IMG/VR virus record: IMGVR_UViG_3300031658_000012
Coordinates: 1 to 50,184 of that record
Reading direction: 5' to 3' (one strand)
Source of the DNA: a virus
DNA length: 50,184 nucleotides
Shown here piece by piece: positions 36,123-48,531 of this stretch. The number at the start of each line of letters is the position of its first letter. Position 1 is the first letter of the stretch. Both the position numbers and the translations under genes were made by a program. The notes under the pieces are model-generated. The model was not told the origin of the DNA, did not search any database, and saw only the letters and a list, made by a program, of their open reading frames with translations.

Positions 36123-36570
36123 ACACTTTTCCCTCCGGGAACTGACAAAAAGCCAGACCGCCGAGCGGTTGGGGATCAACAACACCCCAGACGCTTTTGC
36201 CGAAGCTTACCTTGAGATGCTCTGTGAAGAGATACTGGAACCTGTCCGCGCTCACTACGGTATTCCGTTCTCCCCGTCTTCCGGGTATCGGTCCGTGGAA
36301 CTTTGTGAAGCAATCGGTAGTAGCGCAAAATCCCAGCACGCTAAAGGGCAAGCCGCCGACTTTGAAGTACCCGGAATCGACAACTACGATCTTGCCACTT
36401 GGATCAAAGACAACCTCGACTTCGACCAGCTTATTTTGGAATGCTACACTTCGGGACAACCGAAGTCCGGTTGGGTGCATTGCAGTATCGCAACGAGTAT
36501 GGACGCGCAGCGGAACGAGGTCCTGACTTACAACAAGTCTGACGGGTACAAAAAAGGCCTTTTACGCTAG
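36115..36570 (+). CDS. M15-family peptidase (endolysin or virion lysin)
   Basis: 151 residues. The zinc-binding pattern of M15A peptidases is complete: SSGYRS near residue 57, then SQHAKGQAADFE with His75 and Asp82, and GWVHCS with His122. The family cuts peptide cross-links in peptidoglycan. It may serve as an endolysin or as a virion enzyme that helps DNA entry. It is the last gene of the plus-strand structural series. It ends by overlapping the convergent helicase gene by nine bases around GCTAGC. A second, unrelated wall hydrolase lies at 45.2 kb. Confidence 0.85.
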   Translation: MSKHFSLRELTKSQTAERLGINNTPDAFAEAYLEMLCEEILEPVRAHYGIPFSPSSGYRSVELCEAIGSSAKSQHAKGQAADFEVPGIDNYDLATWIKDNLDFDQLILECYTSGQPKSGWVHCSIATSMDAQRNEVLTYNKSDGYKKGLLR

Positions 36571-38010
36571 CCAGTTCTTCACCTCTTCGCCAAGAACCTT
36601 CCCGGCCAGTACGTTTTTGTCGTAAAGAGCGTTCAGTATCTTCTCGTCAATAGTCCCCCGCGACACAAGATCAACATAGGTCACGGCCTTCTTCTGCCCG
36701 ATCCGATGTGCGCGGTCCTCGGATTGCAGTCGAATCTCCAGATCATAACTGTTGGAGAAGTAAACCACTGTCGTCGCCTCCGTCAGAGTGATCCCGTAGC
36801 CGCCGGTCCGCGGCTGGCCGACGAAAAACCGCAATGGGTCGTCCGGGTCTTGAAAACGCGTAACAATATCCTGTCTGTCTTCCTGCGGCGTCGCACCATA
36901 ATAGGTAGCCACGGACCGCGGACCGTAGGCCGAGGTTATTTCTCGCTCAATCTGCTTCAAACTGTGCGTAAACGTAGCCCAGATAATCGCCTTGCCGCCA
37001 ACGTCCTCCAAAACCTCCATAAGCTCTGTAATGCGGTTGCTTTTGATCTCTTCCAGAGGCTTCTCGTCGGGTTGGAAAAAGCCGCAACAAATTTGTTGCA
37101 GGCGCATAAGCTGTGTTAATACACTCTGCGTCGTAGCCATATTCCCGTTCTCTAGCACAGCCAGAGCGAGTTTTTTCATTTGATTGTATACACTCTCCTG
37201 TTCAGGCGTCAGCGCGACATCCCGGCGGATAAAGAGCTTTTCAGGGAGGTCAAGGCAATCGACCTTCAAAACACGGCTCGAAAAATCCTCCAGTTTTTCC
37301 GTAAGTTCGTCTAACCGCCGGTAGCCGACAATCTCCTGAAACGAGCGGTGCCCCATGGCTCGCCGCTGAACTACCGCGTACCGGTTCTGAAAAGCAAAAA
37401 AGCTGTCTCCGCCCAAAGCCTTTAGGCTCAGGAAGCTGCACTGAGAAAAAAGGTCCATGGGACTTTTTGTGATAGGGGTACCCGTCAGGATACGGCGGTA
37501 TTTCGCAATGGCCCGAGCTTGAACAACATTCTTTGTACGCATCGCCTTGCGGTTTTTAATAGTAGTGGACTCATCGACCACCATCATATTGTTCGGGTTT
37601 TGCTCTAAGAAAGAGTACGCGGCCTGCGCCCCGCGTCCCGAGCTAAAGGCTTCTATGTTCACAACAAAAATCTTGAGGCCGTCGTACGGGTTCATCACCA
37701 AGTCGTACAGCTCCTCTTCGAACTTCTTTGTCTTGGCCGGAATCCAGCGCACCATCTTCCTTTGTATCCGGTCGGGCAAATGCTGCGGAATCTCTTTTTG
37801 CAGCCAGTTGTCGTACACACCCTTTGGGGCTACAACAAGAGCCGCGTTTATTTCTCCTGACTCAAACAACTTGCCTATCGTATCTACGATCACTTTTGAC
37901 TTACCTGTGCCCATTTCCATGAACAGCGCGTGGTAGGGTTCGGACCACGAGGCGTCTAACGCTACCCGCTGGTGGTCAAACGGTTCCGTTTTGAATGCGT
38001 AAGTTTTCAT
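36562..38010 (-). CDS. SNF2-type superfamily 2 helicase
   Basis: 482 residues, the only confident minus-strand gene. It has the two-domain SF2 layout: MEMGTGKSKV (Walker A), VAPKGVYDNW (motif Ia), VVDESTTIKN (motif II, DESx), ILTGTPITKS (motif III), and C-terminal QPRTGGYGITLTEATTVVYF plus QSEDRAHRIGQ (motif VI). The last motif is typical of SNF2 proteins. It would translocate on double-stranded DNA, probably in replication or recombination. It faces the replication genes across a 96-base divergent promoter region. Convergent overlap with the M15 gene may couple their expression. Confidence 0.9.
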   Translation of the reverse strand: MKTYAFKTEPFDHQRVALDASWSEPYHALFMEMGTGKSKVIVDTIGKLFESGEINAALVVAPKGVYDNWLQKEIPQHLPDRIQRKMVRWIPAKTKKFEEELYDLVMNPYDGLKIFVVNIEAFSSGRGAQAAYSFLEQNPNNMMVVDESTTIKNRKAMRTKNVVQARAIAKYRRILTGTPITKSPMDLFSQCSFLSLKALGGDSFFAFQNRYAVVQRRAMGHRSFQEIVGYRRLDELTEKLEDFSSRVLKVDCLDLPEKLFIRRDVALTPEQESVYNQMKKLALAVLENGNMATTQSVLTQLMRLQQICCGFFQPDEKPLEEIKSNRITELMEVLEDVGGKAIIWATFTHSLKQIEREITSAYGPRSVATYYGATPQEDRQDIVTRFQDPDDPLRFFVGQPRTGGYGITLTEATTVVYFSNSYDLEIRLQSEDRAHRIGQKKAVTYVDLVSRGTIDEKILNALYDKNVLAGKVLGEEVKNWLA

Positions 38011-39551: not shown

Positions 39552-41081
39552 ATGGACCACGCAAAAAAGTTTGCGTCGGCCTTCGAAGGATTGTCGTCTG
39601 CGTATTTGACGATGGTTCAAAAAGGACAAAACGGCGCGGGAAAAAACGAAGCGGCCTACGACACCAAACGGAGCCCCCTTACGATAGAAACATACCGAAG
39701 GCACCTTGACGGGGTCGGTAGTCTGGGGATTTTCCTCTTAAACCCAGACTCCTTAGTCAAGTTTGGGTGCATCGATATCGACCAGTACCCGCTAGAGCAT
39801 AAGAAAATTATAGATTTCTTCTTGGAAAAGAAGCTTCCGATAGTGGTGGATCGGTCAAAATCAGGCGGCGCACACTGCTATTTGTTCAGTAAAGAATGGA
39901 TGCCCGCCTCTGAAATGCGGACCGCGCTACGTAAGATTGCCGCAGGTATGGGCCTTGGTGATGCCGAGATATTTCCTAAGCAAGACGTCATTGATGTCGG
40001 TAGAGGAGATGTAGGTTCCGCCATAAACCTGCCGTATTTTGGGCACGAAGACAGTCTGAGACACGCATTTAACGAGGACGGTAGCGCCGCTACCCTCGAA
40101 GAGTTCTTTAAGCTGTACGAGAAGAACGTGCAGACCCCGGAACAAATCGCCGCCCTGTCTCCTATTGAGAAAAAAGAGTTTCTCAAAGACGGACCGCCCT
40201 GTCTCCAAGTGCTTTTGCCCAAGAAGATAAGCGAGGGTGGCCGCAATAACGGGCTGTTTAGTGTCGGTGTTTATCTGCAAAAAGCCTATCCGGACTCATG
40301 GGAAACGGAACTGATGCAGTGGAACATGCAGTATTTCAACCCGCCACTAAGCCTCTCTGAGATGGGTGTGGTGGTGAACCAGTTGAAGAAAAAAGACTAC
40401 ACATACAAGTGTAACGATTCACCGATCAACGCATACTGTGACAGGCCTACATGCCTAACACGAAAGTTCGGGGTCGGCGGTGCCGCTAACGCAACTATGG
40501 CAAACCTCCGCAAGTACGACTCCCTGCCTCCGGTCTGGTTCCTCGACGTAAACGGTACGCCAATCGAACTGGACACCGAGGGCCTGATGTCTCAGCCAAA
40601 CTTCCAGAAGGCCTGTATGGAGCAGGTCAACTTCCTGCCGCCAACGTCTGCGAAGCCTGTCTGGGAAACGCGGATCGCGGCCCTTCTAGGAGAGCTTCGT
40701 AACAACAGCTCCGCCATCATCCCAGTGGCCGAAGAGGAGAGTACGCGAGGTATTTTCTACGAGTACCTGCGAGACTTCTGTGTCCACTTTCAACAAGCGC
40801 AGAACCGGGAAGAAATCCTTCTCGGCAAGCCTTGGACGTCTGACGAAGAAGGTCTTACTTATTTTCGTCTAAGGGACCTCGAAAGCTACCTGCAACGTAA
40901 CAAGTTTTTTGAGTACAAACGTAACCGACTAGCGCAGCGTCTACGTGAAATAGGGGGCGAACACAGTAAGCTCCGCGTCCAAGACAGCACGGTTAACGTC
41001 TACAAGATTCCTTGCTTTCAAGAAGACCGTGTAAAAATAAGGAGCCCGTTCGATGGAAACAACGACGACATCCCCTTCTAA
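39552..41081 (+). CDS. Primase of archaeo-eukaryotic type (TOTE-like AEP)
   Basis: 509 residues, start set by AAAGGA at 39541-39546. The catalytic domain shows motif I FGCIDIDQY (Asp75, Asp77), motif II SKSGGAHCYLF (GGAH at 105-108) and motif III region DVGRGDVGSAINLPYF. This order matches AEP primases of the type found in TOTE conflict systems and some mobile elements. A later Cys cluster (YKCNDSPINAYC, then C five residues later) may bind a metal. The protein ends NNDDIPF, an SSB-like tip, unusual for a primase. Its stop region overlaps the start of the UvrD-like helicase by 29 bases. It would make primers for the family A polymerase. Confidence 0.85.
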   Translation: MDHAKKFASAFEGLSSAYLTMVQKGQNGAGKNEAAYDTKRSPLTIETYRRHLDGVGSLGIFLLNPDSLVKFGCIDIDQYPLEHKKIIDFFLEKKLPIVVDRSKSGGAHCYLFSKEWMPASEMRTALRKIAAGMGLGDAEIFPKQDVIDVGRGDVGSAINLPYFGHEDSLRHAFNEDGSAATLEEFFKLYEKNVQTPEQIAALSPIEKKEFLKDGPPCLQVLLPKKISEGGRNNGLFSVGVYLQKAYPDSWETELMQWNMQYFNPPLSLSEMGVVVNQLKKKDYTYKCNDSPINAYCDRPTCLTRKFGVGGAANATMANLRKYDSLPPVWFLDVNGTPIELDTEGLMSQPNFQKACMEQVNFLPPTSAKPVWETRIAALLGELRNNSSAIIPVAEEESTRGIFYEYLRDFCVHFQQAQNREEILLGKPWTSDEEGLTYFRLRDLESYLQRNKFFEYKRNRLAQRLREIGGEHSKLRVQDSTVNVYKIPCFQEDRVKIRSPFDGNNDDIPF

Positions 41082-44744: not shown

Positions 44745-44771
44745 GCCCCGCCCTTGTGGCGGGGCTTTTTT
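44745..44771 (+). terminator. Rho-independent terminator after DNA polymerase
   Basis: Stem GCCCCGCC (44745-44752) and GGCGGGGC (44758-44765) with loop CTTGT and six T. It ends the replication operon. Confidence 0.93.
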
Positions 44772-44835
44772 CTTGCAGGTCTGCCTTTAGTCCTATATGT
44801 TCGCGTATAGTCATAGTCACTAAAAGGAGTTAAAA

Positions 44836-45027
44836 GTGGATCAGACTAAATGGAAATCCGTTTTGGTGCCGATAGAGGTCTATCGGGAAATCCGAGAACG
44901 GTCTAAGCGCGAAGGCCGCACAATCAGTAGCGAACTGCGATTGATCTATGCGGAATCTGAAAAACTGCGCGGCAGCTACCCGGAAGTTGCGGGCGACGTC
45001 GTCTACGAAGCGTTCAACAATGGCTAA
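44836..45027 (+). CDS. Ribbon-helix-helix-like small regulator
   Basis: 63 residues from GTG 44836 with an AAAAGGAG ribosome binding site. The stretch KSVLVPIEVYREIRERSKRE followed by GRTISSELRLIY is the beta-helix-helix pattern of Arc/MetJ-type DNA-binding proteins. It would act as a dimer on operator DNA. It follows the terminator, with a TATAGT hexamer upstream as part of a possible promoter. The next gene begins inside its last codons. Confidence 0.7.
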   Translation: MDQTKWKSVLVPIEVYREIRERSKREGRTISSELRLIYAESEKLRGSYPEVAGDVVYEAFNNG

Positions 45028-45160
45028 AAAGCCTAGTGTTATAAGCAAAATGACTAACACTGTTCGAAAAAAGACGTCCATAGGCCAGAGCGTTCGTTCG
45101 CGGCCCTTGAACAAAGATAAGAAACGGTCTTTTAAAAGGTACCGCGGACAAGGGAGATGA
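45020..45160 (+). CDS. 46-residue highly basic peptide
   Basis: Starts at ATG 45020 within the previous gene and ends in an ATGA overlap with the hydrolase gene. It is nearly all Lys, Arg, Ser and Thr (SIGQSVRSRPLNKDKKRSFK), ending YRGQGR. It has just one acidic residue. Similar basic peptides occur in marine phages, and a nucleic acid or ribosome-contact role is plausible but unproven. Confidence 0.6.
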   Translation: MAKKPSVISKMTNTVRKKTSIGQSVRSRPLNKDKKRSFKRYRGQGR

Positions 45161-45585
45161 ACCTGACCGCGGCGCTAATATGTCTTGCCCAAACGGTCTT
45201 CTTTGAGGCCCGGGGCGAGCCGTTTCTGGGAAAAGTGGCTGTCGCATCTGTCGTAATGAACAGAACTCTCGACGGGCGCTTCCCCGACAACGTATGTGAC
45301 GTTGTCAAGCAAGGCCCGACGTACAAGAGCAGACCCGACATCCCCGTTAGGCACCGATGCCAGTTTTCTTTTTATTGCGACGGAAAAAGCGATAAGCTAA
45401 ATTATAGGCTGCTGTCCGTGCAGGAATCCGTGGGCGTTGCGTATAAAGTACTTACCGGCCAATTGCCCGACGTCACGGGTGGCGCTACTTTCTACCATGC
45501 GACCTACGTTCGTCCCGAATGGGCTTCATACAAAAAGAAGACTGTGAAGATTAACAACCACTTTTTCTATAAGACTAGACCGTGA
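45157..45585 (+). CDS. SleB/CwlJ-type cell wall hydrolase
   Basis: 142 residues. The start TAALICLAQTVFFEARGE contains the conserved Glu of the SleB-type hydrolase family, followed by GKVAVASVVMNRTLDGRFPD, CQFSFYCDGKSD and GATFYHATYVRPEWA. The family includes spore cortex-lytic enzymes and phage endolysins that cut peptidoglycan glycan strands. A short hydrophobic N-terminus (ALICLAQTVFF) is part of the fold rather than a clear signal. It overlaps both neighbours by four bases. With the M15 peptidase it gives the phage two different wall-cutting activities. Confidence 0.86.
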   Translation: MNLTAALICLAQTVFFEARGEPFLGKVAVASVVMNRTLDGRFPDNVCDVVKQGPTYKSRPDIPVRHRCQFSFYCDGKSDKLNYRLLSVQESVGVAYKVLTGQLPDVTGGATFYHATYVRPEWASYKKKTVKINNHFFYKTRP

Positions 45586-45902
45586 ACAGGCCTCGGAAAT
45601 TTTGGACAAAACAAAGAGTTTGTCAGGCCCGAGAGATGCTTGAAAAAGGGGTGGCTGTACGGGAGATAGCTTACCAAATGGGAACTACCCGAAATGCCGT
45701 TCTAGGGATGAAATTTCGGAACCTGCCTGAAATGCATATTGAGGCTCCTCCACGCGAAAAGGCTCCTCCACCGCCTCCCCCGGAGGGTAACTTCCGTTAC
45801 CGTAAATGCCTGAAATGCCAGAAGACAAAGCTTCTGGAAAAGCCCATGTACATCTGCAAAGAATGCAAGGACGGCGACATTTTTGGGAGCGTTTTCGGAT
45901 GA
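45582..45902 (+). CDS. GcrA-like transcription regulator with C-terminal zinc ribbon
   Basis: 106 residues, starting in an ATGA... overlap with the hydrolase gene. Residues 8-48 (FWTKQRVCQAREMLEKGVAV, REIAYQMGTTRNAVLGMKFR) match the GcrA N-terminal helix-turn-helix, including the TRNAV.G signature. A Pro-rich linker follows, then CLKC (near residue 79) and CKEC (near residue 93), a zinc-ribbon pair not typical of GcrA. GcrA works with sigma-70 at promoters methylated by CcrM at GANTC in alphaproteobacteria. The phage copy could redirect host polymerase. Followed by a terminator. Confidence 0.78.
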   Translation: MNRPRKFWTKQRVCQAREMLEKGVAVREIAYQMGTTRNAVLGMKFRNLPEMHIEAPPREKAPPPPPPEGNFRYRKCLKCQKTKLLEKPMYICKECKDGDIFGSVFG

Positions 45903-46033: not shown

Positions 46034-46061
46034 TTGACGAGGTCGTATGCGATAATATACG
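46034..46061 (+). promoter_or_regulatory. Promoter abutting a terminator
   Basis: TTGACG (46034-46039), 16-base spacer, TATACG (46056-46061). The -35 begins directly after the T-tract. A strong AAAGGAG ribosome binding site at 46077-46083 follows for the gene at 46093. Confidence 0.6.
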
Positions 46062-46469: not shown

Positions 46470-46521
46470 CGTATTTGTGAAAATATTCATCGAAGCGTTC
46501 TTGAAGGTGCTTTTCGGATGA
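46462..46521 (+). CDS. Possible 19-residue peptide
   Basis: ATG 46462 lies inside the end of the previous gene and the stop overlaps the next start at 46518. The peptide MADVFVKIFIEAFLKVLFG is amphipathic and hydrophobic. The perfect chain of overlaps supports translation. The size leaves doubt. Confidence 0.4.
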   Translation: MADVFVKIFIEAFLKVLFG

Positions 46522-46748
46522 CGAGGCATACAATTAAAGAGAGAGAGAACCACATGGTTTTGCTTATCACACTACCTTGCCCGGTTTGCGACGGGGAAGG
46601 TACCGTTGACCGCGGACCGTGGATAGAGGGTCTGTGTTTCGAATGCCTCGGGGAAAAGTATGAGGAAGTCTTGGAAACAGGTTGCGAGACCAAAGCTGAA
46701 GCGCGTCTGAATTATCCAGACGCCGTAGACATGGAGATAATAGAATGA
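46518..46748 (+). CDS. Small zinc-ribbon-like protein
   Basis: 76 residues from ATG 46518. ATG 46554 would give a shorter 64-residue form starting just before the ribbon. CPVCDGEGT and CFEC near residues 21 and 41 form a DnaJ-like or zinc-ribbon cysteine pair. The C-terminal third is acidic. Such ribbons often bind RNA or protein. Function unknown. Confidence 0.65.
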   Translation: MTRHTIKERENHMVLLITLPCPVCDGEGTVDRGPWIEGLCFECLGEKYEEVLETGCETKAEARLNYPDAVDMEIIE

Positions 46749-48065: not shown

Positions 48066-48230
48066 ATGCAGAAACCCGACACCGACCACACCTTTAACGG
48101 TCGCCTCGTGTCCGACAAACACCGCGAGAAGTTTCCGACATGCTCCAAGTGCGGCATGTCAACGTGCATGTACAACCACCTGATTTACCTGCGCGCAAAC
48201 CCACCAAATAAGGAAAACTACAATGCTTGA
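48066..48230 (+). CDS. 54-residue zinc-binding protein
   Basis: ATG 48066 with an AAGGAAAGG site, ending in an ATG...TGA overlap with the next gene. It has CSKCGMSTC near residues 26-34 followed by YNHLIYLRANPP, a cysteine/histidine cluster that would bind zinc. It is the first gene behind the right-end promoter, and so probably an early protein. No family recognised. Confidence 0.65.
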   Translation: MQKPDTDHTFNGRLVSDKHREKFPTCSKCGMSTCMYNHLIYLRANPPNKENYNA

Positions 48231-48531
48231 CGCTATCATCGACGCACTCTTCCCAAAGCAGAAATCGCGGATCGCGGACCTTGACCAGAAGGTCGATATG
48301 CTTCTCGAAGACCTTTACCGTAGAGCAGAAGGTAAATTTTCGGCAGCAGGCACCAACGAATTTATCCCCGTGCCAAAATTTACGCAGGGCTCAAAGAAGG
48401 GGAAGGTCATCTTCTGTCCCCGTTGCAGCCATAGCCACAAGGTACACAATTTCGCGTGGAACGCGCTCAAGTGCCTTAGCTGCGGCACCCCTACCACCAA
48501 ACATAATTGGCTGATGCGGAGGGCAAAATAA
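48223..48531 (+). CDS. Zinc-ribbon protein with N-terminal coiled coil
   Basis: 102 residues, starting eight bases before the previous stop. Residues 1-35 are helical (MLDAIIDALFPKQKSRIADL), then a linker, then CPRCSHSHKVHN and CLSCGTP, a classic zinc ribbon, and a basic C-terminus. It probably contacts nucleic acid or RNA polymerase. It ends in a TAATG overlap with the next gene. Confidence 0.68.
   Translation: MLDAIIDALFPKQKSRIADLDQKVDMLLEDLYRRAEGKFSAAGTNEFIPVPKFTQGSKKGKVIFCPRCSHSHKVHNFAWNALKCLSCGTPTTKHNWLMRRAK

Follow-up and report, generated by a model that had tools for sequence, protein, structure and literature searches.

A phage protein that joins a GcrA-type helix-turn-helix to a zinc ribbon, and its relatives in alphaproteobacteria

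Few bacterial regulators are known to read adenine methylation, and GcrA is among them. The protein, about 170-200 aa long, begins with a helix-turn-helix (HTH) that carries the signature TRNAV.G, followed by a disordered linker; it occurs in alphaproteobacteria (Caulobacter) and in phages (gp222 of phage phiCbK). The sigma-interacting domain occupies residues 108-173 of Caulobacter GcrA (PMC7403470). Phage homologues are already known from phiCbK (PMC3556154) and have been reported in a brucellaphage (PMC11836647).

Two other groups of alphaproteobacterial proteins, both unnamed, resemble the one described here. One, which came to light in this analysis and is encoded upstream of dotI/icmL, comprises an HTH, a linker, and a C-x2-C-x12/13-C-x2-C ribbon, and has no sigma-interacting domain. 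The other is a stand-alone ribbon of about 60 aa (CLxC...ERICxxCKxSxxWR), homologous by profile to the phage ribbon, and without a DNA-binding domain. The open-licence literature searched contained neither the ribbon-bearing variant, nor its alphaproteobacterial ribbon family, nor the link to dotI/icmL.

The window analysed here is a viral record of 50,184 nucleotides (IMGVR_UViG_3300031658_000012). Behind the terminator of its DNA polymerase gene lies a gene set comprising a ribbon-helix-helix (RHH)-like gene, a short basic ORF, and a cell-wall hydrolase gene (Table 1). The HTH-ribbon gene comes next. Its reading frame is open throughout, and its GTG start overlaps the hydrolase stop (45585) by 4 nt (GTGA); this overlap with the hydrolase's last codon suggests translational coupling to the upstream gene. 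A probable terminator hairpin lies on its 3' side. (A second conserved element of unusual spacing, TTGAC...TATGCGATAATAT, is found at 46034-46060, 5' of the next gene set. It is present in the closest phage relative, L001, is less exact in a more distant one, L010, and is possibly a phage-specific promoter.)

Table 1. Features of the HTH-ribbon gene and its surroundings in the window
Feature	Position	Strand	Details
Intrinsic terminator 3' of DNA polymerase gene	44745..44765	+	same position in relatives
Promoter-like element TTGC...TATATGTTCGC.TAT	44773..44808	+	invariant in five phages
RHH-like small protein, first gene of set	44836..45027	+	weak RHH/Arc matches; kept in L001, L003-L010
Short basic ORF, member of hydrolase gene set	45020..45160	+	kept in L001, L003-L010
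Cell-wall hydrolase (Hydrolase_2) gene	45157..45585	+	PF07486, 91 bits
HTH + zinc ribbon protein	45582..45902	+	106 aa, GTG start
GcrA-type HTH, residues 7-46	45600..45719	+	PF07750 match; GcrA structures 5yiu/7ye1 by sequence; AlphaFold helices
Proline-rich linker, residues 47-70, probably disordered	45720..45791	+	pLDDT <50 at residues 47-63
C4 zinc ribbon, residues 71-106; Cys 76, 79, 92, 95	45792..45899	+	Cys invariance; L001 copy
Probable terminator hairpin, T run, long loop	45984..46032	+	read from sequence; kept in L001

The reading favored here, which is reasonably probable, is that the protein serves a lytic-type phage as a small, accessory regulator that binds DNA, its GcrA-type HTH and C4 ribbon together tuning transcription. 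The HTH would bind a DNA site; the zinc ribbon would serve as a dimerisation or protein-contact part; and the regulator would most likely tune transcription of the phage (or host) in the stretch that separates the replication genes from the small-gene region. Directly observed are the anatomy in two domains, how each half is related, the neighboring genes, and the modular make-up; we infer that the protein binds DNA and zinc, that it regulates, and what it targets.

An earlier, sequence-only reading had described a GcrA-like regulator fused to a zinc ribbon, citing the motifs TRNAV.G, CLKC, and CKEC. All three are present (residues 36-42, 76-79, and 92-95, respectively), and the junction of the two halves recurs: L010 has the same architecture. 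As for the GcrA likeness, kinship of the HTH survives; the regulator that the name implies does not, with the sigma-interacting domain absent and TRNAV lost in L010. The GcrA profile search gave a borderline match, confined to the DNA-binding part: residues 8-64 align to positions 3-59 of the 155 in PF07750 at 27.3 bits, just over the cut-off of 26.9, whereas a six-frame search yielded 25.5 bits, under it. The NCBIfam GcrA equivalog (NF050816) was not reached (17.8 bits; cut-off, 280). True phage GcrAs score far higher on PF07750: 66.6 for Phaeobacter phage MD18 and 51.3 for Rhizobium phage RHph_X2_30.

Might the window protein contain an ordinary phage HTH, its likeness to GcrA reflecting convergence or a generic Myb/resolvase-like pattern? 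A control HTH protein from a Firmicutes phage, Exiguobacterium phage vB_EauM-23, scores 27.8 bits on PF07750, more than the window protein, so that the bare match proves neither GcrA nor host. Moreover, the L010 orthologue prefers the resolvase family HTH_7 (20.4) to GcrA (16.8), and a Foldseek search of the PDB returned only generic HTHs, from recombinases and transposases, with none at E <= 0.001. However, a model built from host GcrA HTHs gives 35.8 bits for the window and 21.8 for the Firmicutes control. Among Pfam families, GcrA ranks first for the window protein, for a second phage protein of this architecture (L092), and for both secretion-linked host proteins tested. The ribbon partner and the host range, too, are alphaproteobacterial. 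An ordinary HTH is therefore rather unlikely. With a profile of six HTH-ribbon proteins, the top match among solved structures is GcrA (E 9e-11), although four of the profile's rows come from other lineages and the window protein alone reaches GcrA at E 0.009. Because L010 keeps both halves and the family profile retrieves GcrA structures at this level, the likeness exceeds chance, and the HTH half is, as judged by profile, kin to the GcrA DNA-binding domain.

AlphaFold predicts helices at residues 10-21, 26-33, and 37-41 (pLDDT about 83), then a disordered linker and, at lower confidence, a two-stranded ribbon. The run used seven sequences in a shallow alignment; its mean pLDDT of 64.7, like the Foldseek result, counts against the favored regulator. 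(A phmmer match of the window protein to PRDM9 proved to be a repeat artefact.)

The PF07750 match ends well short of the sigma-interacting domain, and the sequence contains no counterpart of its motif, CxWP...FCG...YC..H (neither CxWP, FCG, nor YCxxH). Lacking that domain, the window protein is not a GcrA: as an account of where the HTH domain came from the GcrA reading stands, but on the defining mechanism it fails. The proposal that the protein redirects host polymerase is thereby reduced to conjecture. A working GcrA would bind methylated GANTC and recruit the host sigma-70 polymerase, the ribbon replacing the sigma-interacting domain. Consistent with this, a comparison with 87 host GcrAs shows W, T, V, G, IA, TRNAV.G, and R in common, and the distribution of the ribbon tracks the alphaproteobacteria, which carry GcrA. 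Against it, L9, W13, K, H, and LGL, all near-invariant in host GcrAs, are missing from the window protein. Of 14 near-invariant residues in the recognition region (TRNAVIGKVHRLGL) of this reference set, which is mostly from Rhodobacterales, 7 are shared. The L010 orthologue reads TRGAV, having lost the N, so the TRNAV.G signature is not conserved there. The protein also is shorter than GcrA, and its C-terminal cysteines follow another pattern.

Nor do GANTC sites support the further proposal, that the protein reads host methylation. Between genes in the window there are 9 sites against 7.4 expected (p=0.32), which is no enrichment; none lies in the intergenic stretches flanking the gene set or in the promoter-like element upstream of it. 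The GcrA-preferred form YGAKTCG is below expectation (11 versus 27), and the window encodes no CcrM-type methyltransferase. A working GcrA is, on this evidence, quite improbable.

Across the whole window, GANTC occurs 113 times where 184 are expected (O/E 0.62), the lowest value among the 16 palindromes of that form. This depletion was considered as a host marker and rejected: it falls between the values for a Pseudomonas phage (0.53) and E. coli (0.74), and so is not diagnostic; lambda stands at 0.82 and a Planktothrix phage at 0.00. (The latter, Pag-Yong1, L189, has 0 GANTC in 50 kb, positions 1-50000, where 249 are expected.) The DNA-polymerase relatives of the phage (L011-L082) look alphaproteobacterial by their GANTC depletion, with a pooled O/E of 0.26; Rhodobacterales loci stand at 0.24. 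In these relatives CCNGG is at 0.49, with single loci down to 0.04, which suggests that GANTC/CCNGG sites are methylated or restricted in their hosts.

The ribbon is the more informative half. It has the form C-x2-C-x12-C-x2-C within the broader pattern R.CL.C-x12/13-C-x2-CK. C76, C79, C92, and C95 are invariant in 15 relatives (alignment A3), and presumably bind zinc. No Pfam or NCBIfam family covers the ribbon in the copies tested. A phage-only profile, A2, retrieves the stand-alone alphaproteobacterial proteins, in which SEWxGERIC stands where the phage version has EKxxYIC. Profile A3, some of whose rows came from the A2 search and which therefore carries some ascertainment bias, finds the ribbon in 55 of 289 alphaproteobacterial genomes and in 0 of 217 GcrA-less Pseudomonadota genomes (p=4e-15). 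In a draw of 299 Pseudomonadota genomes it finds three, all among the 82 with GcrA (Fisher p=0.02 within the draw); a phage-only ribbon profile, A4, finds one, again a GcrA carrier. (Comparison of A3 with A4 was set aside, as the two share rows and are not independent.) In the genomes sampled, the ribbon family is confined to alphaproteobacteria and their phages. The alphaproteobacterial host previously proposed is supported, mainly by the ribbon; the HTH match, equalled in a Firmicutes phage, is not by itself indicative.

Host copies of the ribbon are mostly about 50-70 aa long and without other domains, although some lie C-terminal to apparent winged-helix domains. This raises the question of whether the ribbon is the working part, mimicking or capturing a putative partner of the host's stand-alone ribbon protein, with the HTH optional. 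The phage relatives speak to both sides. L001 has lost the HTH and encodes in the same slot a ribbon alone (52 aa, 87.5% identical), which also ill suits a role by DNA binding alone and so counts against the favored regulator. L010, however, has a two-domain gene in that slot behind the hydrolase, with 43% identity in each half, and the HTH is retained in L092/L095 as well. We regard the ribbon as sole working part as unlikely. In a further phage group (L092/L093/L095) the HTH-ribbon gene is immediately 5' of a Hydrolase_2 gene, and L003-L009 have the hydrolase with neither HTH nor ribbon. Loss of the HTH in L001 and absence of both halves from L003-L009 mark the gene as accessory. A tblastn search with the window protein and its L010 orthologue against 50,697 phage records detected no record with both halves. 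Megablast gave no match to phage records for the first 20 kb, and a scan of genome contigs with alignment A1 (three rows) gave none either.

Full-length HTH-ribbon proteins were identified by profile search in 8 of 385 alphaproteobacterial genomes. Seven of the eight genes share a strand with dotI/icmL and directly precede it, at a distance of 10-294 bp, in a type IVB secretion cluster (L217, L218, L276-L279, L281); in the cluster that was typed with Pfam, dotH/icmK comes next. IcmL is present in all eight of these genomes and in 3 of 62 others (p=2e-8). The first ~70 positions of the architecture profile, its GcrA-type HTH, match many alphaproteobacterial genomes; when the matches of the phage-only profile were read residue by residue, such genes proved to be full GcrAs.

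The HTH-ribbon architecture probably regulates the dot/icm operon that follows it in alphaproteobacteria. The secretion-linked proteins differ from the window protein in this operon link, in their longer linker, and in their HTH, which belongs to another subgroup (RLGL kept, TRNAV not): a model of the secretion-linked HTHs gives 9.8 bits for the window and 38.6 for L092. Since the window HTH reaches 35.8 bits on the host-GcrA model and only 9.8 on this one, the window gene may have arisen by a fusion of its own, and the analogy with secretion may not hold for it. A bolder conjecture, and a very remote one, sees a GcrA-derived family in which the alphaproteobacteria-specific ribbon, standing in for the sigma-interacting domain, makes a second class of RNA-polymerase cofactors that depend on methylation: a type IVB operon switch in alphaproteobacteria, taken up by phages for timing their genes to the host's cell cycle.

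The best reading of the window gene remains an accessory phage transcription regulator drawn from alphaproteobacterial stock. Its recurrent architecture, in which the GcrA DNA-binding domain is kept and the polymerase-contacting part exchanged, would show how that domain is reused, and whether methylation reading travels with it. The ribbon represents an uncharacterised family present in about a fifth of the alphaproteobacterial genomes sampled, and the dotI/icmL link leads directly to a hypothesis of how type IVB secretion is regulated in those alphaproteobacteria that carry the HTH-ribbon gene.

Elsewhere in the window, two further small Cys-rich proteins are encoded at 46518-46748 (CPVC...CFEC) and 48223-48531 (CPRC...CLSC), neither matching a Pfam family above its cut-off. 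The replication region includes, on the minus strand, an SNF2-type helicase (36562-38010); it also encodes a primase (39552-41081) with a match to the primase family of TOTE conflict systems.
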